Of a stretch of 45,734 bases of DNA, positions 29,197 through 40,585 are shown piece after piece. Made by a program: the position numbers and the translations under genes. The stretch covers positions 1 to 45,734 of the forward strand of contig JAGNNA010000002.1 of NCBI GenBank assembly GCA_017990895.1, written 5' to 3'. Within the stretch, counting starts at the first letter, position 1, and every line of letters begins with the position of its first letter. The notes under the pieces were generated by a model. That model was not told where the DNA came from and did not search any database. It saw only the letters and a list, made by a program, of their open reading frames with translations. The stretch is from Reyranella sp. (GTDB lineage: Bacteria; Pseudomonadota; Alphaproteobacteria; Reyranellales; Reyranellaceae).

Positions 29197-30162
29197 TCAG
29201 TTTATTGGAATCTTGGCGACCCGCACCAGTTCCTTGGTGTCGACGAGCTCGCGAGCGACATAGCCATCGAATGCAGTGGGTGACATCGGAGCCGGTTCGG
29301 CCCCAACTGCGGCGAGCTTCACCATCATGTCAGGCGACTCGAGCGCCTTCACCAGCGGCTTGTTGAGCGCGTCCACAATGGCGTTTGGCGTGCCGGCCGG
29401 GGCGAACATGCCTATCCACGGCTCATAGGAAGAGTTGGCGATCCCCACCTCAACCGTCGTCGGCACGTCCGGAAGCATCCGCGAGCGCTTTGCGGTGCTC
29501 GTCGCCAACGCCACGAGCTTTCCCTCCTTGATCGGGCTCAGAGTGTTGCCAATCGAGATGAAGGCAAAGTCGACGCGTCCTGCCATCACATCGGTCAAAG
29601 CCTCAGGGGTGCCGCGGTAGGGAACGTGCACACCCTCGAAGCCGGCCATTGCCCGGAACTTCTCCGATCCCATATGAAGGGCACTTCCGACTCCGCTCGA
29701 CGCATAAGTGATCTGGCCGGCCTTCGCCTTGGCCAGAGCCAGCAGGTCCTTGACCGACCAAATGTTGCCAGATGGCGCCACAACAAGGATCAGCGGCAGT
29801 GTCGCCAGCATCGTGATGCCGCGAAACTCCTTTGCGGTATCGTACGGCAGGCTACCGTAGAGTGCTGGATTGGCAGTGTGGGCCGACGATACGACCAGCA
29901 GTGTGTAGCCGTCGGGCGGTGCCTTGGCGACCACAGCCGAGCCGAGCGAACCTCCGGCGCCCGGCCGATTATCGACCAGGAAAGGTTGCGAAAGCGCTTC
30001 CCTCAGGCTCTCGGCTGCGAGGCGTGCCACGACGTCAGTGGCACTGCCCGCCGAGATTGGCACCACGACCTTCACTGGCCGCGACGGGTAGTCATTGGCA
30101 CTTGCGGCCTTGGACACCAGGCCGGCCGTGAGCGCGAGGGAGAGGGTACGCCGGCGCATCAT
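29197..30162 (-). CDS. Bug-family solute receptor (TctC-like), selenoprotein operon
   Basis: 321 aa. Signal MMRRRTLSLALTAGLVSKAA cleaved near SAND, then YPSRPVKVVVPISAGSATDV, LVDNRPGAGGSLGS, PYRGTPEALTDVMAGRVDF and the usual C-terminal region. Periplasmic carboxylate-type receptor; ligand unknown. Its ATG overlaps the TGA of the dioxygenase gene (ATGA), so it is the last gene of the operon that includes the UGSC selenoprotein, CoA-transferase and dioxygenase, and could capture the compound they degrade. No TctAB permease is nearby. Confidence 0.93.
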   Translation of the reverse strand: MMRRRTLSLALTAGLVSKAASANDYPSRPVKVVVPISAGSATDVVARLAAESLREALSQPFLVDNRPGAGGSLGSAVVAKAPPDGYTLLVVSSAHTANPALYGSLPYDTAKEFRGITMLATLPLILVVAPSGNIWSVKDLLALAKAKAGQITYASSGVGSALHMGSEKFRAMAGFEGVHVPYRGTPEALTDVMAGRVDFAFISIGNTLSPIKEGKLVALATSTAKRSRMLPDVPTTVEVGIANSSYEPWIGMFAPAGTPNAIVDALNKPLVKALESPDMMVKLAAVGAEPAPMSPTAFDGYVARELVDTKELVRVAKIPIN

Positions 30163-31175
30163 GACTGCACCGCCGGAACGCCACCGCGCGAGCCATTGTT
30201 GAAGCGATCGCCCATGCCCGGCGCAAGTGGGCGCCCCTCGTGCAAGTTGAGCCATAGGCGCAACAGGAGCCGCTTTTCCTCTGGCCGATCGCCATCCCTG
30301 AATGCTGTACGCGTGTGGATCACGGTCCAATTATTGAGGAACTGAATGTCGCCTGGGCGGAAGTCCATGCCGAGGCAGAGATCGGGGCTGACGGCGAGTT
30401 CCTCGACACAACGGATCGCTGCCCACTCGGCGTCCGTCAGCGGTCGTCCCTGCTTCTCGCGCGCCGTCCGGCTCGACTTGGAGTTCAGGCAGCAGCTAAG
30501 CCTGCCTTCGAACAAGCTGTAGACAGGGATGTCGGGGGTCGTTTCGTCGAGGCGGCGCTCGGTACCCTCGCCTCGCGTGTCGTGGGGAAATCCACGGTGC
30601 AGGATGGGCAAGTGCTCCGGATGGTCCCGGACGATGCGCTGGTAGATCGAAATCGCACTGGCGATCATGCTTCGCCCGCCTTCCGGCGACTTGCGCACGC
30701 AGAGCAACCCCACCACATCGCTGGGATCATTATGAGGGTTGGCCGCGGCCGCCGTCGTGTAGAGGCGCGTATTGATGTCCTCGTAGTCGTCGCCCTGGTC
30801 GGCGACATGGGTCATTAGATCGCCACGCTTGTTCTGGTAGACTGGCGCGCCCATGTGCACGCCGATGCCCCAGTAAATCGCCTTGATCGTGTCGAGGTCG
30901 TAGCGGTCGACGGGGATTCCTCGCAACAGGAAGAAGCCGCAACCGTACTCGAGCTGACGGGCCTGCTGGGCCAACCGCTGACCGAACGTCGGGATAGGGA
31001 AATCCCCCGCCGAGTACCCAGGGGGTGCAAGGCCGCGAGACCGCACGGCCTTCACTGCCTCGTCGAGTTCACGCAGGTCGGACGGCGTCAGTTCGTAGAG
31101 CCATTGATCGGCCGACCGATGGTCTTCGGCTTTCCAGGCGAACCGATCAGTTTGGTTGTGCAGCACGGTATCCAT
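30159..31175 (-). CDS. TauD/TfdA-family dioxygenase, selenoprotein operon
   Basis: 338 aa. Iron ligands His148-x-Asp150 (NPHNDPSD) and His287 (WTVIHTRTAF), with Arg306 as likely 2-oxoglutarate contact (LLLRLWLN). The longer N terminus and GEGTERRLDETT-type insert place it with the TauD-like enzymes related to gamma-butyrobetaine/asparagine oxygenases rather than with TfdA itself. ATG 31175 follows GGAGG. 30 bp after the CoA-transferase gene and overlapping the Bug receptor gene by 4 bp. Fe(II)/2-oxoglutarate-dependent hydroxylation of an unknown small molecule. Confidence 0.9.
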   Translation of the reverse strand: MDTVLHNQTDRFAWKAEDHRSADQWLYELTPSDLRELDEAVKAVRSRGLAPPGYSAGDFPIPTFGQRLAQQARQLEYGCGFFLLRGIPVDRYDLDTIKAIYWGIGVHMGAPVYQNKRGDLMTHVADQGDDYEDINTRLYTTAAAANPHNDPSDVVGLLCVRKSPEGGRSMIASAISIYQRIVRDHPEHLPILHRGFPHDTRGEGTERRLDETTPDIPVYSLFEGRLSCCLNSKSSRTAREKQGRPLTDAEWAAIRCVEELAVSPDLCLGMDFRPGDIQFLNNWTVIHTRTAFRDGDRPEEKRLLLRLWLNLHEGRPLAPGMGDRFNNGSRGGVPAVQS

Positions 31176-31205
31176 GCGTTCCTCCAATTCTGCGGCACTA
31201 CAACT

Positions 31206-32438
31206 TCAGATGATGCCGTCCTTGACCAGCCTCTCGAGTTCGTCCGCACCGAGGCCGAGCAGCCCGCCGAGAACTTCTTCGTTATGCTGGCGAGGCAGTG
31301 GTGCCGGGCTGAAATAGCCAGCCTCCGCCTCGCTGAATTTCATCGGGAAGCCGGGGGCGCCAATCTCGGGAAGGACTCCGAGCGTCGGATGCTCGAGCGA
31401 CTGGTACATGCCACGCGTTCGCAGGTGCTGCGACTCGGCCAGTTCCCGGGGCCCGTTGATGGCCGCGGCGACGCCCCCTGCGGCGAGCATCCGCTCGACC
31501 GCCTCGACGGTGGTGCGGTCGGCGGCCCACTCGGCGACCAGGGCATCGACCTGCTCGTTATGGGCCACCCGCCAGTCGAGGCTGCTCCAGTCGGGATCGT
31601 CCGCCAGGTCGAGGCGGTTGAGCGCCTTCAGCACGCCGGACCACTGGCCATCGGTCGCTGCCCCCAGCACCGCCCAGCCGTCCTTGGTGGCGTAAGTGTT
31701 GATCGGCGAAAAGCGCAGGATCCGATTGCCCTGGCGCACCGGCACACCAAGCCGCTCGTACCAGTCTATCGGGTCGTCGAACATCAGGGCAAAGAGGCAG
31801 TCGACCATGGATATGTCGACAAACTGGCCTCGTCCCGTGCGCTCCCGGTCGAGCAGGGCCGCCAGAACGCCCGACATCGCAAACGTGCCGGCGATCGCGT
31901 CGGACAGGGCCGTGCCGGCCTTCATCGGCGGCTGGCCCGGCAGCCCGGTCACACTCATCAGCCCGGCCGCAGCCTGGACCGTGACGTCGTAGGCCTTCAG
32001 CTCGCGGTCCGGACCCGTCGAGCCATAACCGGTGAGCGCACAGTAGACCAGGCGGGGATTCGCAGCCGAGAGAGTCGCGTAGTCGAGCCCGAGACGGGCC
32101 ATCACTCCGACGCTGAAGTTCTCGACCACGATGTCCGCCTTCTCGACCAGTCGAAGGAAGAGCTTCCTGCCTTCTTCCTTCTTGAGATCGAGGGTGATGG
32201 CCTTCTTGCCGCGCGTGCGCTTCAGGTAGTTGACGTTCAGGTCATCCGCGGACTTGCGCTTGAACGAGACGCCTTCGGCGCCCGCATAGGGCGCACCGAG
32301 CGCCACCCGATCGGCGCCCGCCGGCGAGTCGATCCGGATCACCTCCGCCCCAAGTCCGGCCAGGAAAAGCGTCGCCTGCGGCCCCGAGAAGAACTGCGTC
32401 AGGTCGAGGACACGGGTTCCAGCGAGGATGCGGTGCAT
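31206..32438 (-). CDS. CaiB/BaiF-type CoA-transferase, selenoprotein operon
   Basis: 410 aa. Begins MHRILAGTRVLDLTQFFSGP; AEVIRIDSPAGADRV, ENFSVGVMARLGLDY, GYGSTGPDRELKAYD, catalytic Asp180 (ALSDAIAGTF) and the C-terminal RQHNEEVLGGLLGL are all standard for family III CoA-transferases. Starts 14 bp after the stop of the UGSC gene. Indicates that the operon's substrate, or a product, is a carboxylic acid handled as its CoA thioester. Confidence 0.92.
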   Translation of the reverse strand: MHRILAGTRVLDLTQFFSGPQATLFLAGLGAEVIRIDSPAGADRVALGAPYAGAEGVSFKRKSADDLNVNYLKRTRGKKAITLDLKKEEGRKLFLRLVEKADIVVENFSVGVMARLGLDYATLSAANPRLVYCALTGYGSTGPDRELKAYDVTVQAAAGLMSVTGLPGQPPMKAGTALSDAIAGTFAMSGVLAALLDRERTGRGQFVDISMVDCLFALMFDDPIDWYERLGVPVRQGNRILRFSPINTYATKDGWAVLGAATDGQWSGVLKALNRLDLADDPDWSSLDWRVAHNEQVDALVAEWAADRTTVEAVERMLAAGGVAAAINGPRELAESQHLRTRGMYQSLEHPTLGVLPEIGAPGFPMKFSEAEAGYFSPAPLPRQHNEEVLGGLLGLGADELERLVKDGII

Positions 32439-32452
32439 GCCGGTGGTCGCTT

Positions 32453-32992
32453 CTAACGACGGACCAGGAGACGCTTGACCTGCTCGGCCGCCTGACGGGC
32501 TCGATGACGGACCTCGTCATCGGTACAACTCGACAGGGGATGATCGACGACGACCGGCTCGAGACCGGTCATGCCGAGAGCGGCTCGTTGCGTGACGCAC
32601 TCGGTGACGAATTCCCGCGTGACGATGACCGCCGACGGGGTACCCAGGCTTTCCAATTCAATGCCGTCGTGCACACTGCACGATGTACAGGACCCTCAAT
32701 CGCCTATGGCTGTAATGACCACATCGCTGGATGCTGCGATCTGCGCAATCATTTCCGGGTCGGCCGTGTAGGAGAAGCCGCGCTTCACGAAGGTATTGAC
32801 CTGCGAGAAGGCAAACTCCTCGTTCAGGATATCGGCCGTGTAGGTGAGCAGCTTGCCGGCCTTCATCTTCGCATTGTCGAGAACGCCCAGGCGCAGCCCC
32901 CTCAGGTCGGCAACCCGGGGAGCCAGCGGCCGCGCTTCGGCCTGGACGATACCGCGGGGGTCGTAGCCGTAGAGGGGGATGCTGTAGGACAT
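32453..32992 (-). CDS. UGSC-family selenoprotein; in-frame TGA read as selenocysteine (residue 99)
   Basis: 179 codons from ATG 32992 (AAGGAG 7 nt upstream) to the stop at 32453, interrupted only by TGA at 32698-32696. The reading is VVITAIGD-U-GSCTSCSVHDG: Sec99 in the U-G-S-C motif that names this family, giving a U-x2-C (Sec99/Cys102) and an overlapping C-x2-C (Cys102/Cys105). Both sides are well conserved in character: MSYSIPLYGYDPRGIVQ and NAKMKAGKLL before, ELESLGTPSAVIVTREF and HPLSSCTDDEV after. Cytoplasmic, no signal. A hairpin fitting a bacterial SECIS follows the TGA. Standard callers would give two pieces (stop at 32696, or a start at 32674) or none. Function unknown; a redox or reductive role is inferred from the motif, which recalls Sec motifs in the glycine/betaine reductase B component. 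The selA, selB and selC genes are not in the window. Confidence 0.85.
32667..32683 (-). promoter_or_regulatory. Candidate bacterial SECIS hairpin
   Basis: In the mRNA, 12 nt after the UGA, UCGUGCA-GUG-UGCACGA forms a perfect 7-bp stem with a three-base GUG loop; the loop begins 19 nt after the UGA. Bacterial SECIS elements are short stem-loops just inside the coding region with G (often GU) in the apical loop at about this distance. It overlaps codons for SCSVHD. SelB binding is inferred. Confidence 0.7.
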
Positions 32993-33021
32993 GGCGAAAC
33001 TCCTTGCAGGATCGGCGATGA

Positions 33022-34140
33022 TCAGAGGAAGCAGGTGCCGTCGATGCAGACCGGGCCGCCGTTCGGCACGGCGCCATCGATCGAGCGGAGAACCGGGCTG
33101 TTGTAATGCCCCCAGCCCGGAATGAACGACGAGAAGCGGCCGGCGGTCCCACCGATGACGAAAAGGTGGATATTGTCGGGCGACGGAACGATCGGAATGT
33201 CGGAATCCAGATCGCGGCGATACCAGCGCGGCAGGTGGCGATTGTAGGCCTTGCCATACTTGTGATTGTGGACGATGCGGCCAAACTTGTTTGTCGCGTA
33301 CATTTGCAGGTAGCAACGCACGTCGTGACGGGTCCAGCCATGCTTGGCGATCGCCTGTGCGTGCTCTGGCGACAGGGCCACGGTACAGTGGCCACTGGCA
33401 CGGGCGTTGTTGTGCACGACGGTCGTCATTGACGAGATGACGTCGTCGAGAATGCCCTCCGGGTCATTCGGCAGGGGGCTGTTGATGTTGTGGTTCGACT
33501 CCGCGCCGATCGCAAAGACCGTCGAGTCCTGCATTCGGTACCCCTTCTCCACATGATACGGAGCCCAGGGGCTGTCTTCCTCGTTCTCGGCAACGCAATA
33601 GCTGTACTTGGCCGGCGTGCCCTGTGTGCTCTTGTCCAGCACCCCAGGCAATGCGCCGCCCACGTTGAGAAGCATCAGTCGAATTGCCCGGCCGATGGTC
33701 GCGTTGGCGCGGTTGCCGGGAGCGAATGCGCCGTGTCCGGCGTTCATCCCGATCTCCTTCCGGACCGGCCCGTTGACCACAACCAGGGGGGCAATGACAT
33801 GTGTCGTTGCCTGGATGGCATTGAGGTTGAAGTGGGGTTCGCACATGGCCCGCATGGCCGCCCGGAGCACCGGAGCGTACAGGGGCAGGCAGCCGGCCAT
33901 CACGGCATTCACCGCGAGCACGCGGCGCGTCAGGTTTCCCCAGCGCGGCGGCACCCTTGCCTCCAGGAAATCGCCGTCGCCGCCCAGGGCCTCGACCATT
34001 GCCTCGACCTTTTCAGGGGTCGGGGGCACCACCGGCAGTCCGTCCGTATACCCGTTGGCGAAGTACCATTCCTGCGGGTCAACGCCATCCAGCGGGATCA
34101 TGTCCCCGCCGACCCGGTCTTGCAGCGCAGTTGACGCCAT
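33022..34140 (-). CDS. Conserved protein of unknown function, partner of the UGSC selenoprotein
   Basis: 372 aa from ATG 34140 (GAGG 8 nt upstream; GTG 34167 and ATG 34101 are alternatives). Cytoplasmic, no signal or membrane segment. Distinct stretches: ANGYTDGLPVVPPTPEKV near the start, GNRANATIGRAIRLMLLNVG in the middle, many His and Asn residues (HNHKYGKAYNRHLPRWYRRD), and a Gly-rich GGTAGRFSSFIPGWGHYNSP before the end. The last residues, PVCIDGTCFL, hold a C-x4-C pair (Cys365/Cys370) that could be redox-active or bind metal. 29 bp upstream of the selenoprotein gene on the same strand, so the two are almost certainly co-expressed. I do not recognise a characterised family. Confidence 0.85.
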   Translation of the reverse strand: MASTALQDRVGGDMIPLDGVDPQEWYFANGYTDGLPVVPPTPEKVEAMVEALGGDGDFLEARVPPRWGNLTRRVLAVNAVMAGCLPLYAPVLRAAMRAMCEPHFNLNAIQATTHVIAPLVVVNGPVRKEIGMNAGHGAFAPGNRANATIGRAIRLMLLNVGGALPGVLDKSTQGTPAKYSYCVAENEEDSPWAPYHVEKGYRMQDSTVFAIGAESNHNINSPLPNDPEGILDDVISSMTTVVHNNARASGHCTVALSPEHAQAIAKHGWTRHDVRCYLQMYATNKFGRIVHNHKYGKAYNRHLPRWYRRDLDSDIPIVPSPDNIHLFVIGGTAGRFSSFIPGWGHYNSPVLRSIDGAVPNGGPVCIDGTCFL

Positions 34141-34204
34141 GCCAGCGGCCTCGCGAAAGCGTTTCACTCCTCGTCGTGCGGTCTGCGCCGCATCGGCTGA
34201 CTAA

Positions 34205-34216
34205 TTGTTCGAACAA
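34205..34216. promoter_or_regulatory. Candidate operator of the GntR regulator
   Basis: TTGTTCGAACAA, a perfect 12-bp palindrome in the 89 bp between the GntR gene and the first structural gene of the selenoprotein operon, 64 bp before its start. HutC-type GntR proteins bind short palindromes of this size next to their own operons; binding here is inferred. Confidence 0.5.
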
Positions 34217-34229
34217 AATGCAGCTGCCG

Positions 34230-34967
34230 TCAACTACTGACATTCTCACGAAACAGATCGATCGCTTGCCTGAACAACTCGAGGCGATAGTGGAGGTCCG
34301 CTGTAACGATCGGCGTGCCCTCCCAGGCAAAATAGGTGCGCCGCACGACGACCGTCGGATGACCGGGGGGAATACCGAGATGCTGCGCAGCCGGCAACGA
34401 CGCCTGACCGCCCTCGATCTCCTGGCGCACGCGATAGGCTCGAATCCGGCGCGCCTTCTCGATCTGGACAATCAGTGGTTCGAGACCGATGTCCCGACGC
34501 GACAACGCCTTGCCGTCCTCGAGACGCATGGCATTGACCGAGTAGAAGGCACGCTCGCCGGGCTCTCCCCGGGAGACCCTTTCGATCACGAACAGCTGTC
34601 CGCCTCTCGCTATGCCGAACAGGGTGGCATAATCGGGAAACCGGCTTGCGCTCACGGCCTTTGCCGACAGGACGCGCGGCTGCTCGAGCAGATTGCGATC
34701 GATGAGGTCTTCGACCGAACGGATAGCCCACGGAGATCTTTCGCGCGGAACGGCGATGACGACAGTGCCCCGCCTTGGCCGGCGCTCGATCAGGCCGTCA
34801 CGCTCCAGTTGGAGAAGGGCAGAGCGCACGGCGTAACGCGACATGCCGAACTCTTCCATCAATTCGCCTTCGGTCGGAACCTTCAGGCTGTAGCGCCGGC
34901 GGGCGATGCGGTCGCGCAGGATGCGCGCCAGTTGGGTCCCGACGGACGCATTCCCGCTCTCTCTCAT
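34230..34967 (-). CDS. GntR-family transcriptional regulator, HutC type (UTRA domain)
   Basis: 245 aa. Winged helix at about 8-75 (LRDRIARRRYSLKVPTEGEL, FGMSRYAVRSALLQLERDGL, RRPRRGTVV), then a UTRA effector domain at about 90-240 with ERVSRGEPGERAFYSVNAM and VVVRRTYFAWEGTPIVTADL. Binds a small effector and releases DNA, usually as a local repressor. Directly upstream of, and in line with, the selenoprotein operon, with the palindrome at 34205 between them; it probably senses the compound taken up by the operon's Bug receptor. Promoter expected within 34968-35173, where I see no clear boxes. Confidence 0.92.
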   Translation of the reverse strand: MRESGNASVGTQLARILRDRIARRRYSLKVPTEGELMEEFGMSRYAVRSALLQLERDGLIERRPRRGTVVIAVPRERSPWAIRSVEDLIDRNLLEQPRVLSAKAVSASRFPDYATLFGIARGGQLFVIERVSRGEPGERAFYSVNAMRLEDGKALSRRDIGLEPLIVQIEKARRIRAYRVRQEIEGGQASLPAAQHLGIPPGHPTVVVRRTYFAWEGTPIVTADLHYRLELFRQAIDLFRENVSS

Positions 34968-35173
34968 GCGTCTGCTTTCTCCTCGATTGCACCGGCTGCC
35001 AAGTCCAAGTCTGCGACCTCGCCGGCAAATCGAATGCCCGCCGACGTCCGGGCAACAACGTGGAATGTCACCGCAGGAGACACTCGATCGCGCGTTGGCA
35101 CCGTTGAGGCTGACAGCCGACTTTTTACGCCGCCGCTCTTCAGCGGCCGACGGCTTGCCGCCCCGCCTTTCGC

Positions 35174-37045
35174 CTAGGGTGGGTCAGCATACTCGAACAC
35201 ATACGGCTCCAGCGTAGCCTGCGCCTCGGTGCGCAGACGATGCCATTTTGCAGGACCGCCGTAATAGGCGAGGCTGCCGGGCTCGGCCTTGCCGTCGCCG
35301 TTGTAGTAGCTGAGGCAGTCGCGCAGCGGCGCAGTGAGGAGATCCGCTTCGCGACAATGCTGCGCATAGGCGTCTTCGGGCTCCCTTCTCACATCGACGA
35401 TGGTTGCTCCACGCTCCTTCATGGTCTGGAGCATCCAGACCACGTAGTCGGTGTGGCCTTCCAGGCCTCGCGTGAAGTTGAACTGACCGCCGCCGCCTTG
35501 CGGGCCCGACATGATGAAGAGGTTGGGGAATCCATGACTATGCAGGCCGAGGAAGGTGCGGACACCCTCCTCGCGCCACCTGTCGCGCAACGTATGGCCG
35601 TCGCGTCCGACGATCATGTTGAATGTCCCCGTCGCCATCCACTCGAAGCCGGTGGCGTAGATCAGGACGTCCAGTTCGTACTCGACACCGTCATGCACGA
35701 CGCCCCTGGGCGTGATCTTCCTCACGCCGAGGGGCGCGGTATCGACCAGGTGCACATGCGGCAGGTTGAAGCTCGGCAGGTACTCGTCGTGGAACGTCGG
35801 CCGCTTGCAGCCATAGGGATAATAGGGCTTCAGGGCCGCGGCGGTCCTGGGATCCTTGACGACGGCGTCCACGCGCGCCCGGATCTGCTCCATGATCCGG
35901 AAATTGGTATTGAGCTGCGCCTGGATCATTTCCTCCGGAGATAGCGGGCGCTCGTAGACCTTGCGCTCCTTCACCTGGGCGACACGTCCGGCGAGAAAGT
36001 CGTCATTGCCTTGCAGAGCGGTGCGGCCCGAGGAAATGGTGGCAAGACGCTCGCGCCGCGCCTTGGCCCAGCCCGGCTCCTTCGACCAGATGTCGATCTC
36101 CTCCTGCGTGGTGGCGCGCTGGTCGCGCACGTCGATGGTCGAGGGCGTACGCTGGAAGACGTAGAGCTCCTTGACCACCTTGGCGATCTCGGGAACGACC
36201 TGCACGGCCGTGGCGCCGGTGCCGATGATTCCGACGCGCTTGCCTTCGAGGTCGTAGGTGTAATCCCAGCGCGACGTGTGAAACGCCTTTCCCGCGAAGC
36301 TGTCCATGCCCTCGATACGGGCCAGCTTCGGCGTGGTCAGGATGCCGTTGGCGAGAACCACGTAACGCGCCCGCATGCGGTCGCCACGGTCCGTCTCGAT
36401 CGTCCAGCGGGCGCTGCTCTCGTCCCAGGTGGTTTTCTCGACCGTGGTATGGAACAGGCAGCGTTCGTAGAAGCCATGGCGCTCGGCCATTGTCTGGCAA
36501 TATTCTAGGATCTCGAACCCCGAAGCGAACTTCATACTGGGGTAGTAGCCCATCTCCTCCAGCAGGGGCAGGTACGAGTAGGATTCGACGTCGCACGCGA
36601 TGCCTGGGTAGCGGTTCCAGTACCACGTGCCTCCGACATCGCCCCCCTTCTCGCAGAAGCGCACGTCTGTGAAGCCCGCCGCCTTCAGCTTGTACCAGAG
36701 CACCAATGCGCCGAAGCCGGCCCCGATGACCAGGATTTCGCATTCGTCGCCGAGCGCGTCGCGCGGCACGGGCGGGGCCGAGTAGGCATCCTCGAGATAC
36801 TTCGCGAACTCGCCTTCCATGGCCATGTAGTCGGCCGCGCCTTGCCGCGCCTCCTTGTTGGCGCGGTACCTCGCCTGCTCCTCGGCGTTGAATTTCGCAC
36901 CCGGCGGCGGATCCGGAAGTGTCTTCAGCGCCAGATCGGCAACGGGCGAATAGCCCTTGCCGGCAATCTTCTCCGTCGCCTTCGCGGCACGCGTATTGAA
37001 TATTTTTCGCCCGGTTGCGGGGTCGATGCGTATCGATGTGGTCAT
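35174..37045 (-). CDS. Flavin-containing Baeyer-Villiger-type monooxygenase
   Basis: 623 aa. An N-terminal extension of about 100 residues as in the larger cyclohexanone/steroid monooxygenases, FAD Rossmann IGAGFGALVLW (about 107-117), GGDVGGTWYWNRYPG, the BVMO fingerprint FAGKAFHTSRWD (260-271), the NADPH Rossmann GIIGTGATAVQ (272-282) and the C-terminal YATGFEW (second ATG motif). Inserts oxygen into ketones to give esters or lactones with NADPH and O2. Start ATG 37045 is the first with family sequence; no strong ribosome site. 212 bp after the Bug receptor gene on the same strand, so it may be the tail of that operon or separately transcribed. Confidence 0.93.
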   Translation of the reverse strand: MTTSIRIDPATGRKIFNTRAAKATEKIAGKGYSPVADLALKTLPDPPPGAKFNAEEQARYRANKEARQGAADYMAMEGEFAKYLEDAYSAPPVPRDALGDECEILVIGAGFGALVLWYKLKAAGFTDVRFCEKGGDVGGTWYWNRYPGIACDVESYSYLPLLEEMGYYPSMKFASGFEILEYCQTMAERHGFYERCLFHTTVEKTTWDESSARWTIETDRGDRMRARYVVLANGILTTPKLARIEGMDSFAGKAFHTSRWDYTYDLEGKRVGIIGTGATAVQVVPEIAKVVKELYVFQRTPSTIDVRDQRATTQEEIDIWSKEPGWAKARRERLATISSGRTALQGNDDFLAGRVAQVKERKVYERPLSPEEMIQAQLNTNFRIMEQIRARVDAVVKDPRTAAALKPYYPYGCKRPTFHDEYLPSFNLPHVHLVDTAPLGVRKITPRGVVHDGVEYELDVLIYATGFEWMATGTFNMIVGRDGHTLRDRWREEGVRTFLGLHSHGFPNLFIMSGPQGGGGQFNFTRGLEGHTDYVVWMLQTMKERGATIVDVRREPEDAYAQHCREADLLTAPLRDCLSYYNGDGKAEPGSLAYYGGPAKWHRLRTEAQATLEPYVFEYADPP

Positions 37046-37257
37046 GGCTGCTGTTCTGCTTTGTTTGCAAAACCTGAACAGACCAACCAACCCCTGTCAA
37101 ATTTCAGGCGTCATGGCTGTTGTGACCTGCCTCGATTCTTCGAACCACCGCTCAAGCTGGAAAAACCGGCGTCTCCTGGTCACATGTCGCGCAGCGTCCC
37201 GGCCCCGGGCGGAAACGGGCGCTGCGTCGGTCCATCTCAGCTTCTCTGCGAACCCTG

Positions 37258-38235
37258 TCAGATCTTGATGGCGGCCCGGCGTATGATGTCGCCATAGAGG
37301 GCACGTTCGGCGACGATCCTGGCGCTGAAGTCGGCCGGTGCCAGATAGCTTCCGAAATGCTGCACGTTCGCAAGCTTGTCGACGACTTCCGGCGACTTGA
37401 GCGCATTGTCGATCGCCTTCGACAATGCGTCGACGACAGGCTGTGGCGTGGCCTTGATGGCCACGATGCCATACCATGAATCGCCGCCGGTCTTGCCGTA
37501 GCCCTGCTCGGCGAGGGTGGGCAGATCGGGCTTGCCAGGCCAGCGCTTGTCACCGATGACGGCCAGGCCTTTCAGCCGTCCGTCCGCGATCGGTGGCAGC
37601 GTGGACGGATCGAACTGCACCTGGATCTGACCCGCGAGAAGATCCTGGAGCGCCGGAGCGCTTCCCTTGTACGGCACATGCGTCATCTGGATACCGGCCT
37701 CGACGCTCAGCATCTCCGGAAGGATATGGAAGAGCGTCGCCTGGCCGGGTGAGCCGAAGTTCACCTTGCCGGGATTGGCCTTGCAGTAGGCAACGAACTC
37801 CCCGACGTTGTTCACTGGCAGGGACGGGTGGACGGCCATCCCCGTCCAGCCCGTCACGGTGCGGGCGACGGGGATGAAGTCCTTGTCGGCATCGTACGGT
37901 ACGGGCTGAAGGTGCTGCGTGATGCAGAGCATCCCCACCGTAGCGGCAAGGAACGTGTGGTTGTCGGGCGCCGTATTCTTGAACACCTCTGCGCCGATCA
38001 TGCCGCTCGCGCCGGCGCGATTCTCGAACAGCGCGGACTGGCCGAGGTCGGTCATGGCCTTCGCGAGCACGATGCGGGTGGTTACGTCTGTAGGGCCGCC
38101 CGCCGCATAGGGAATGATGATCTTCACCTGCTTCTCGGGCCACGCCTTCTGCGCGCGGGCGACTGCGGGCGCCAGGAGCGTTGCGGCGCTGGCCGCAATG
38201 AAGCCGCGGCGGCCGCGGGCCGTGCTGTCCGTCAT
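37258..38235 (-). CDS. Bug-family solute receptor (TctC-like), acyl-CoA dehydrogenase operon
   Basis: 325 aa. Twin-Arg-like signal (MTDSTARGRRGFIAASAAT, cleaved near ARAQ), then WPEKQVKIIIPYAAGGPTDV, LFENRAGASGMIGAEVF, VPYKGSAPALQDLLAGQIQV. Periplasmic carboxylate receptor, third of its kind in this window, also without TctAB. GAGGAGGG precedes ATG 38235. It follows the second dehydrogenase gene by 17 bp, so it is the last gene of that operon and may bind the acid they degrade. Confidence 0.93.
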   Translation of the reverse strand: MTDSTARGRRGFIAASAATLLAPAVARAQKAWPEKQVKIIIPYAAGGPTDVTTRIVLAKAMTDLGQSALFENRAGASGMIGAEVFKNTAPDNHTFLAATVGMLCITQHLQPVPYDADKDFIPVARTVTGWTGMAVHPSLPVNNVGEFVAYCKANPGKVNFGSPGQATLFHILPEMLSVEAGIQMTHVPYKGSAPALQDLLAGQIQVQFDPSTLPPIADGRLKGLAVIGDKRWPGKPDLPTLAEQGYGKTGGDSWYGIVAIKATPQPVVDALSKAIDNALKSPEVVDKLANVQHFGSYLAPADFSARIVAERALYGDIIRRAAIKI

Positions 38236-38252
38236 TGTTCCCTCCTCATGCT

Positions 38253-39383
38253 TCAGGCTGAAATGCGGTCCGCAAGGCGGCCGATGTGATGATCGGTGTC
38301 CCCGAACAGGATGCTGACGGAGAGCAGGCGCTTGTAATAGGCGCCGACCGAAAGGGCCTCGGTCATGCCGATGCCGCCGTGCATCTGAATCGCTTCCTGG
38401 CCGATCAGGCGCCCCGCCTCGTTCACGCGCACCTTGGCCGAGGATACGCCCTGCACCCGCTGTTCGGCCGAAGGCTCTTCCAGGACCAGCGTGCCGCCGA
38501 TGACCAGGGAGCGCGCTTCCTCCAGCGCGACGTGCATCTGAACCAGGCGGTGCTGCAGCACCTGGAAGGTGGCGAGGGGCTTGCCGAACTGTTTGCGGAT
38601 CTTCAGATACTCCGCCGTCGTCTCGACCAAGACCTCCATGCAGCCAAGCGCGTAGGCCGCGTCTGCCATGAGGGCCGCGTCGACAGTGGCTTCGATTGCA
38701 GGCAATGCCTCGCCCACGGCTCCGAGCAGAGCCTCCGGCCCGACCGTCACGCCGGTTAGTTTGACTTCGCCGGCGGGAAAGTCGTCCTGGGTGCGCGTGG
38801 GACGGATGTCCAGCCCCGTTGCGGCGCGGGGTATGAGGAACAGGCTGAGCCCGGAGCGGTCGCGCTGGCCGCCCGCCGTGCGTGCAGAGACGACCAGCCA
38901 CTCGGCGTTCGGCGCGTTCAGCACCACGGCCTTCGAGCCGTCGATACGCCACCCGTCGCCGTGTCTGGCGGCGCGTGTGGCCACGTCATGCAGGTCGAAG
39001 CGCCCCTGCGGCTCGGCCAGCGCTGCCGCCAGCTGGACCTCGCCGGCACTCAGTCGGGGCAGGATCTTCGCCGGGTCGTTGGTGCGGGCAAGAAGCCCGC
39101 CCGCCATCACCACGCTTGCAAGGTAGGGCTCGACCACGAGGCCACGACCGAGTTCCTCCATCAGGACCATGTGTTCCACAGGACCACTGCCGAGGCCGCC
39201 AAGGTCTTCGGGGATTGATATCCCCAGCCACCCCATGGCAGCGAATTCCTTCCAGAGCCCGGCTGAGAAGCCGCCGACGCTCTCGACGCTCCGGCGTCGC
39301 ATGGGCTGGTCGTAGCGATCCGTCACGAACCGCCGGGCGCTCTCCTGCAGCATCCGCTGCTCGTCGCTGAGATCGAAGTCCAT
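38253..39383 (-). CDS. Acyl-CoA dehydrogenase family protein (second of pair)
   Basis: 376 aa. N-terminal helical domain (DFDLSDEQRMLQESARRFV, GWLGISIPEDLGGLG), beta domain and C-terminal helices with RKQFGKPLATFQVLQHRL and QMHGGIGMTEALSVGAYYKR. The middle domain is less canonical than in its neighbour (no W-I-T/S flavin motif), as in the smaller partner of paired FadE-type dehydrogenases that form mixed complexes. Begins 8 bp after the stop of the first dehydrogenase gene. Introduces a double bond into an acyl-CoA with FAD. Confidence 0.9.
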   Translation of the reverse strand: MDFDLSDEQRMLQESARRFVTDRYDQPMRRRSVESVGGFSAGLWKEFAAMGWLGISIPEDLGGLGSGPVEHMVLMEELGRGLVVEPYLASVVMAGGLLARTNDPAKILPRLSAGEVQLAAALAEPQGRFDLHDVATRAARHGDGWRIDGSKAVVLNAPNAEWLVVSARTAGGQRDRSGLSLFLIPRAATGLDIRPTRTQDDFPAGEVKLTGVTVGPEALLGAVGEALPAIEATVDAALMADAAYALGCMEVLVETTAEYLKIRKQFGKPLATFQVLQHRLVQMHVALEEARSLVIGGTLVLEEPSAEQRVQGVSSAKVRVNEAGRLIGQEAIQMHGGIGMTEALSVGAYYKRLLSVSILFGDTDHHIGRLADRISA

Positions 39384-39391
39384 TTTCCGCC

Positions 39392-40585
39392 TCAACCCAG
39401 GAGATGCTTGGCCATGATGTTCTGCTGAATCTCGCTGCCGCCGCCGGCGATGGTAAAGGCGCGGCTGCGGAACCGCGCATTGGAGGCGCCGGGGGCATAG
39501 TCCGGCCCGATCGGCGGCGCGAGATCGTCGTTTGTGATGCCGTGCGCCTGGAAGGGAACGCCGTAGTAGCCGAGCGCATCGACCGTCGCCTGCAGGAGAT
39601 CCTGCAGCAACTCCGTGCCCTGCATCTTCAGCATGGTAACGGAAGGATCGAGCTTGCCGCCAGCATCCGCTTTGGCGATGAAGCGGAGGACGCTGAGATC
39701 GAGCGCGCGTACCCGCACCTCGTACTGCGCGAGCTTGCGGCGGAACCAGTCGTGCTCGATCAGGGGCTTGCCGTGCGCGAGCTCGCGACGGGCGATCTCC
39801 TTCAGCCGCTGCAGACGCTTCTTGTTGTCGCCGACGCGCGCAAGGAAGAGCCGCTCGTGTTCGAGCAGCGACTTCGCGACAGTCCACCCCTCGTTCTCCT
39901 TGTGAACCAGGTTGGCGATCGGGACGCGAACGTTCTCGAAGACGACCTGATTGAAGATATGCTGGCCGTTGATGGTCGGAATCGGCTGGATCGAAATCCC
40001 CCGCGAGGCCATGTCCACAAGCAGAAAGCTGATGCCCTGCTGCGGCTTGCCTTCCTTGCGGGTGCGTACGAGACAGAAAATGTGCGTCGCCCAGTGTGCC
40101 AGAGACGTCCACACCTTCGTCCCGTTCAGGATGTAGTAGTCGCCCTCGCGCCTCGCTTCGGTCTTGAGCGCTGCCAGATCCGATCCTGCGTCCGGCTCCG
40201 AATAGCCCTGGCACCACCAGTCCTTCACCTCGAGGATACCGGACAGGTAGCGGCGCTTCTGCGCCTCGGTCCCGTATTCGATCAGGATCGGCCCGATCAT
40301 GGCGATGTTGAAGATGTGCAGAGGCGGGCAATAGTTGAGGGCGCATTCCTCCTCGAAGATGTGCCTCTGCATCAGCGACCAGCCGGTACCGCCGTGCTCC
40401 TTTGGCCAGGAGGGGGCAAGCCAGCCCTTGCGCGCCAGGATCGAGTGCCAGCGGGCCATCTCGTCCTTCTCGGGCTCCCAGCCTTCCTCGTTGTGAACCT
40501 TGATGCCGGCGGGAAGTTCGTGCCGCACGAAGGCCCTCACCTCTTCACGAAAGGCGCGGTCCTCGGCCGTTTCGCGCATGTCCAT
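39392..40585 (-). CDS. Acyl-CoA dehydrogenase family protein (first of pair)
   Basis: 397 aa. Canonical layout: RAFVRHELP, GWLAPSWPKEHGGTGW, the flavin/substrate motif WWCQGYSEPDAGSDLAALKT, LNGTKVWTSLAHWATHIFCL, and C-terminal GGGSEIQQNIMAKHLLG. GGAGG precedes ATG 40585. First gene of the operon dehydrogenase - dehydrogenase - Bug receptor, divergent from the GntR regulator at 40662, with shared palindromic operators between them. Substrate probably a medium, branched or ring-bearing acyl-CoA; not deducible further. Confidence 0.92.
   Translation of the reverse strand: MDMRETAEDRAFREEVRAFVRHELPAGIKVHNEEGWEPEKDEMARWHSILARKGWLAPSWPKEHGGTGWSLMQRHIFEEECALNYCPPLHIFNIAMIGPILIEYGTEAQKRRYLSGILEVKDWWCQGYSEPDAGSDLAALKTEARREGDYYILNGTKVWTSLAHWATHIFCLVRTRKEGKPQQGISFLLVDMASRGISIQPIPTINGQHIFNQVVFENVRVPIANLVHKENEGWTVAKSLLEHERLFLARVGDNKKRLQRLKEIARRELAHGKPLIEHDWFRRKLAQYEVRVRALDLSVLRFIAKADAGGKLDPSVTMLKMQGTELLQDLLQATVDALGYYGVPFQAHGITNDDLAPPIGPDYAPGASNARFRSRAFTIAGGGSEIQQNIMAKHLLG

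Follow-up and report, generated by a model that had tools for sequence, protein, structure and literature searches.

The UGSC gene and its in-frame UGA

The window, that is, the whole stretch of 45,734 nucleotides analysed, comes from contig JAGNNA010000002.1 of the Reyranella sp. assembly GCA_017990895.1. Its minus strand carries a gene of the UGSC family with an in-frame UGA codon, a hairpin after that codon and a second conserved gene upstream. The features are the following:

33022..34167, minus strand: conserved partner gene upstream of the UGSC gene, an ORF of 381 aa without known family (tblastn homologues)
32453..32992, minus strand: UGSC-family selenoprotein gene, 179 codons plus stop, with its ATG at 32992-32990 (translation with TGA as U; PF24696; NF041046)
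32696..32698, minus strand: UGA codon predicted to be read as Sec (residue 99); homologues have Cys at this position
32684..32695, minus strand: spacer of 12 nt between UGA and stem, GGGUCCUGUACA (sequence)
32677..32683, minus strand: 5' arm of the putative SECIS hairpin, UCGUGCA (sequence and homologue comparison)
32674..32676, minus strand: apical loop GUG, of which GU is nearly invariant in the UGSC family (loop codons of UGA members)
32667..32673, minus strand: 3' arm of the putative SECIS hairpin, UGCACGA (sequence and homologue comparison)

Translated with UGA as Sec, the gene gives the motif GD-U-GSCTSCSVHDG around that residue. The protein matches PF24696 over residues 11-177 (187.3 bits, cut-off 25, E 3.4e-55) and NF041046, 'UGSC family (seleno)protein', with 145.6 bits (cut-off 125). 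Set against the known family, it shows the same UGSC (UxxC) motif, a UGA-encoded Sec and a model match over nearly its whole length; there is no difference in kind, and it is a further member, one of four copies in this genome. The U/C-G-S-C motif is invariant in alignment A1, and the closest relatives, 75-85% identical, belong to MAGs labelled Reyranella, Enhydrobacter, Limnohabitans and Caenispirillum. The family was listed from metagenomes as early as 2008, when ocean samples yielded 255 members with Sec and 21 with Cys (PMC2398784), and stands among the selenoproteins with largely uncharacterised functions (PMC13188914).

PDB sequence searches with the UGSC protein, both single and profile, returned nothing significant. 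In fold comparison its structure model (pLDDT 87.7) is similar to alpha/beta proteins of a generic Rossmann or flavodoxin-like kind: the best match is a designed protein (Z 11.6, rmsd 2.9 over 125 residues), and 8s7v_H is matched at Z 10.8 (rmsd 3.5 over 133 residues). The alpha/beta arrangement is too common for a function to be named from it, and we rejected doing so.

Default translation ends at the UGA (ORF 32696-33316), as it would at a true stop, or at a sequencing or assembly error, with a decayed remnant beyond. However, the PF24696 match spans the codon, dozens of other genomes and the paralogues within this one share the UGA, and the codons past it evolve as coding sequence. Such a reading is therefore already contradicted by the comparative data, and we give it a negligible probability. 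The genome bin contains four UGSC genes, all with UGA, and the same UGA gene is present in other genomes of the order; among the matches listed in 75 order-level genomes, each UGSC member has one TGA, and UGA is retained in most UGSC members of the class sample. A DNA pattern for the Cys motif gave 8 matches in 385 genomes of the class, none of them UGSC-related by profile.

The bin also contains Sec-decoding machinery. Within about 4.5 kb of contig C177 lie selA (559 bits), selB (458 bits) and the gene of a tRNA-Sec whose anticodon is UCA (71.5 bits), and contig C510 carries selD (294 bits). As the genome is a MAG (77.6% complete, 5.4% contaminated) and the sel genes lie on contigs other than that of the UGSC gene, the assignment of this machinery is subject to the caveat of co-binning.

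Geometry and folding of the hairpin

The sequence confirms the coordinates and distances of the preliminary description, which had placed a 7-bp hairpin 12 nt past the UGA with its loop at 19 nt. On the minus strand the stem consists of 7 perfect Watson-Crick pairs, 19 nt separate the UGA from the loop, and the loop GUG begins at nucleotide 20 past the UGA. That a G-led loop on a 7-bp stem at this distance suits bacterial Sec insertion agrees with the bSECIS model of PMC13188914: a loop of 3-9 nt, an upper stem of 4-16 bp, a G at loop position 1 or 2 that in many cases precedes a G or U, 16-37 nt from UGA to apical loop and an MFE of at most -7.5 kcal/mol. The hairpin lies within all of these bounds, with a loop of 3 nt (GUG), a stem of 7 bp, a distance of 19 nt and, taken alone, -8.2 kcal/mol. 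No Rfam family reaches its gathering score anywhere in the window.

Like the SECIS of E. coli fdhF, the element is a small apical hairpin within the coding region, and its loop GU, at nucleotides 20-21 after the UGA, stands at the distance of fdhF G23-U24; the fdhF positions are counted from the U of UGA, and on that count the loop GU is likewise 23-24. The numbering of G23, U24 and U17 is that of PMC8659212, and we confirmed the fdhF sequence in 5,368 E. coli genomes. In contrast to fdhF, the 7 stem pairs here follow one another without a break below a 3-nt loop, and there is no bulged U matching U17 on the 5' side of the upper stem. Bulged U17 is essential in E. coli (PMC8659212); lacking it, the hairpin may therefore not be read by E. 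coli SelB.

Folding of the 50 nt after the UGA had been proposed as a check. In the ensemble the inner pairs of the 7-bp stem have a probability of about 0.70; the formal MFE is an overlapping alternative hairpin, GUC.UGUACAU-CGUGCA-GUGUGCA.GAC (-11.1 versus -8.8 kcal/mol), and the folding z-score against dinucleotide shuffles is -0.05. We dropped this z-score as a test because it gauges the total folding of the 50 nt and not this hairpin. The lower energy would speak for the alternative hairpin as the functional structure. Its 5' arm, however, is made of codons three and four past the UGA, and these vary in orthologues (TGT/TGC, ACA/ACG/AGC/TCA), whereas the codons of the 7-bp stem are invariant; its loop starts 13 nt past the UGA, short of the 16-37 nt that the model allows, and the ensemble itself gives weight to the 7-bp stem. 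We consider it very improbable that the alternative hairpin is the one that functions.

The further claim that such a stem is unlikely by chance within codons for a conserved motif proved too strong for one sequence. Among the synonymous versions of TSCSVHD (seven codons), 64 of 4,608 form all 7 pairs at this position, and about 4% have a stem at least as good when family codon usage is sampled (p ~0.04). With the 50-nt z-score also near zero, the hairpin is, as a single sequence, only mildly unusual, and the chance argument is weak. The single sequence says little, and the case was therefore rested on homologues.

Selection on the hairpin across homologues

Contig collections, sampled whole genomes and plasmid records supplied 194 UGA members and 24 members in which TGC or TGT stands where the others have UGA. 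In the non-redundant UGA members (n=145) the median stem is 7 bp and 92% have at least 6 bp, whereas in the non-redundant Cys members (n=21) the median is 4 bp and 29% reach 6 bp or more (Mann-Whitney p 1.3e-8, not corrected for relatedness). Stem pairs 2-6 make up 430 cells in the 86 distinct 24-nt UGA blocks aligned in one register, and 428 of these are standard pairs; in 20 Cys blocks, 65 of 100 cells are. When the 3' arm is slid along 50 distinct UGA blocks, the paired cells fall from 93% to at most 57%.

These 50 blocks contain 12 cells changed on both sides, versus 2.6 expected, a number that none of 500 shuffles attains; in the 11 alignable Cys blocks, covariation is not above that of shuffles (336 of 500 as high). 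The preliminary description had expected the arms to co-vary in Sec-containing homologues and not to be equally conserved in Cys-containing ones, and the homologues behave in this way on both counts.

Double-sided changes are found at three stem pairs. At pair 6, C-G becomes G-C (TGC..TTG to TGG..TTC): UGA members with Trp (TGG) in place of Cys (TGC) have a facing codon that ends in C (TTC, ATC, GTC) and not in G (TTG, ATG, GTG). Pair 3 goes from G-C to A-U among UGA members, and in one locus (L110) Cys-to-Gly and His-to-Leu replacements jointly turn pair 4 from U-A to G-U. On a quick tree with many unsupported forks, the pair-6 switch needs only about two events, so that the tally of double changes is not one of independent events; the compensatory changes are few but clear. 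The Sec/Cys state changes about 10 times on the quick tree, at least 3 of them on supported branches.

Selection is also visible at the level of codons. Across 8 close relatives, the four codons of the hairpin whose amino acids do not vary show 0 synonymous differences in 112 pairwise comparisons; the corresponding counts elsewhere are 420/952 upstream of the UGA, 51/112 in the first four codons that follow it and 471/896 past the hairpin (44-53%). The loop serine is AGT in all 123 distinct UGA members that have it, while AGT accounts for 6.8% of the serine codons in the rest of these domains. Of 25 distinct UGA members with Cys as the loop residue, 24 encode it by TGT. Cys homologues never have AGT at the loop codon.

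It could be argued that the palindrome is a codon by-product of the SCSVHD motif in a GC-rich genome, without RNA function, the UGA being decoded via another element. The synonymous-codon null, at p ~0.04 for this sequence, speaks for this, as do the closest Cys homologues: because SC and HD are conserved there, 78% of their cells are still paired, pairing being thus partly forced by the amino acids. Some haloarchaeal Cys genes (L231, L232, L235, L240) even have stems of 6-9 bp by the stem measure used. Yet a by-product does not account for the absence of synonymous change in the hairpin codons, for the near fixation of AGT and TGT in the loop, or for the double-sided changes in the stem; moreover, other subfamilies make the stem from other codons. 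In long, apparently fused relatives it reads CCCGC-CGTGTT-GCGGG, at nearly the same distance and with G second in the loop. We hold the by-product explanation to be most unlikely.

Two observations concern these outlying members. UGSC domains with the CCCGC-CGTGTT-GCGGG SECIS-like stem and the motif GC-U-GSCTPAVLR, or one close to it, lie in open frames of ~580-660 aa in alphaproteobacterial genomes (L144, L146-L150, L154 and L155). On haloarchaeal plasmids (L235 and L240), the stems that follow the Cys codon of Cys-type UGSC genes may be either remnants or codon by-products.

The homologue comparison is decisive, and the sequences make an unusually clear case that the hairpin itself is under selection. 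The hairpin is almost certainly a bacterial SECIS within the coding region of a UGSC-family selenoprotein; we file it as an ordinary bacterial SECIS of a known selenoprotein family. SelB binding to the hairpin and actual insertion of Sec are what we infer from this. With a ribosome at the UGA, SelB carrying Sec-tRNA-Sec would bind the apical part of the hairpin, the loop GU being, by analogy with E. coli fdhF, the probable main contact. Sec would then be delivered in place of termination by release factor 2, and the product would be 179 residues long, with an alpha/beta domain that contains the motif U-G-S-C-x-x-C.

The element itself was to be expected; it is a clear natural example of how an RNA signal can lie within a conserved active-site motif. 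Given nearly fixed loop codons, no synonymous change, paired changes that alter amino acids and relaxed Cys homologues, it makes a good benchmark for SECIS predictors. Neither the stem covariation nor the partner gene is mentioned in the available parts of PMC2398784 and PMC13188914, which is not proof of their being unreported.

The partner gene and its neighbourhood

By tblastn, a homologue of the partner gene is present in nearly all UGSC loci examined, of Sec and Cys forms alike, including Chloroflexota, Nitrospinota, actinobacterial and haloarchaeal loci; in bacteria and haloarchaea alike it lies next to the UGSC gene. The start given to the ORF is tentative, as conservation begins near residue 22-27. 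The protein has no sequence match in Pfam, NCBIfam or the PDB (single and profile searches). Its structure model (pLDDT 81.5) finds its best fold match in fumarate hydratase, at Z 4.5 and rmsd 6.0 over 198 residues, values that are no evidence of such a likeness. On a Variovorax plasmid (L234, 1453-3090), the UGSC protein and the partner are fused into a single protein of 545 aa.

The occurrence of the partner in nearly all UGSC loci, together with the Variovorax fusion, therefore suggests that the two proteins form a two-subunit redox enzyme, and the partner gene provides a handle on what UGSC proteins do. A fuller reading, which we judge evenly balanced between right and wrong, is that UGSC and partner constitute an uncharacterised two-subunit selenoenzyme, sometimes fused, with a Sec form in bacteria and a Cys form in haloarchaea and some other bacteria, and that upkeep of the SECIS has shaped the protein's conserved motif. 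As an instance of such shaping, the replacement of Cys by Trp is seen only with the pair-restoring change of the last base in the neighbouring codon.

The partner of one Cys-type UGSC gene (L218, 26-1480) has an N-terminal thioredoxin-like stretch with a weak, below-cut-off match to TIGR01068 (E 0.0007), which accords with a thiol redox role. Around the UGSC gene of the window, positions 29197-40346 (minus strand) encode two TctC-type binding proteins, a TauD-type dioxygenase, a class III CoA-transferase, a GntR regulator, a flavin monooxygenase and an acyl-CoA dehydrogenase, and look like a catabolic cluster.

On the conjugative IncP plasmid p2-T1 of Acidovorax sp. T1 (L233, 1480-1770), an annotated 'hypothetical protein' ends precisely with the Sec UGA (1768-1770). 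Because the gene runs on past this codon with the hairpin UCGUGGA-GUG-UCCACGA, a selenoprotein seems to have been mis-annotated here.
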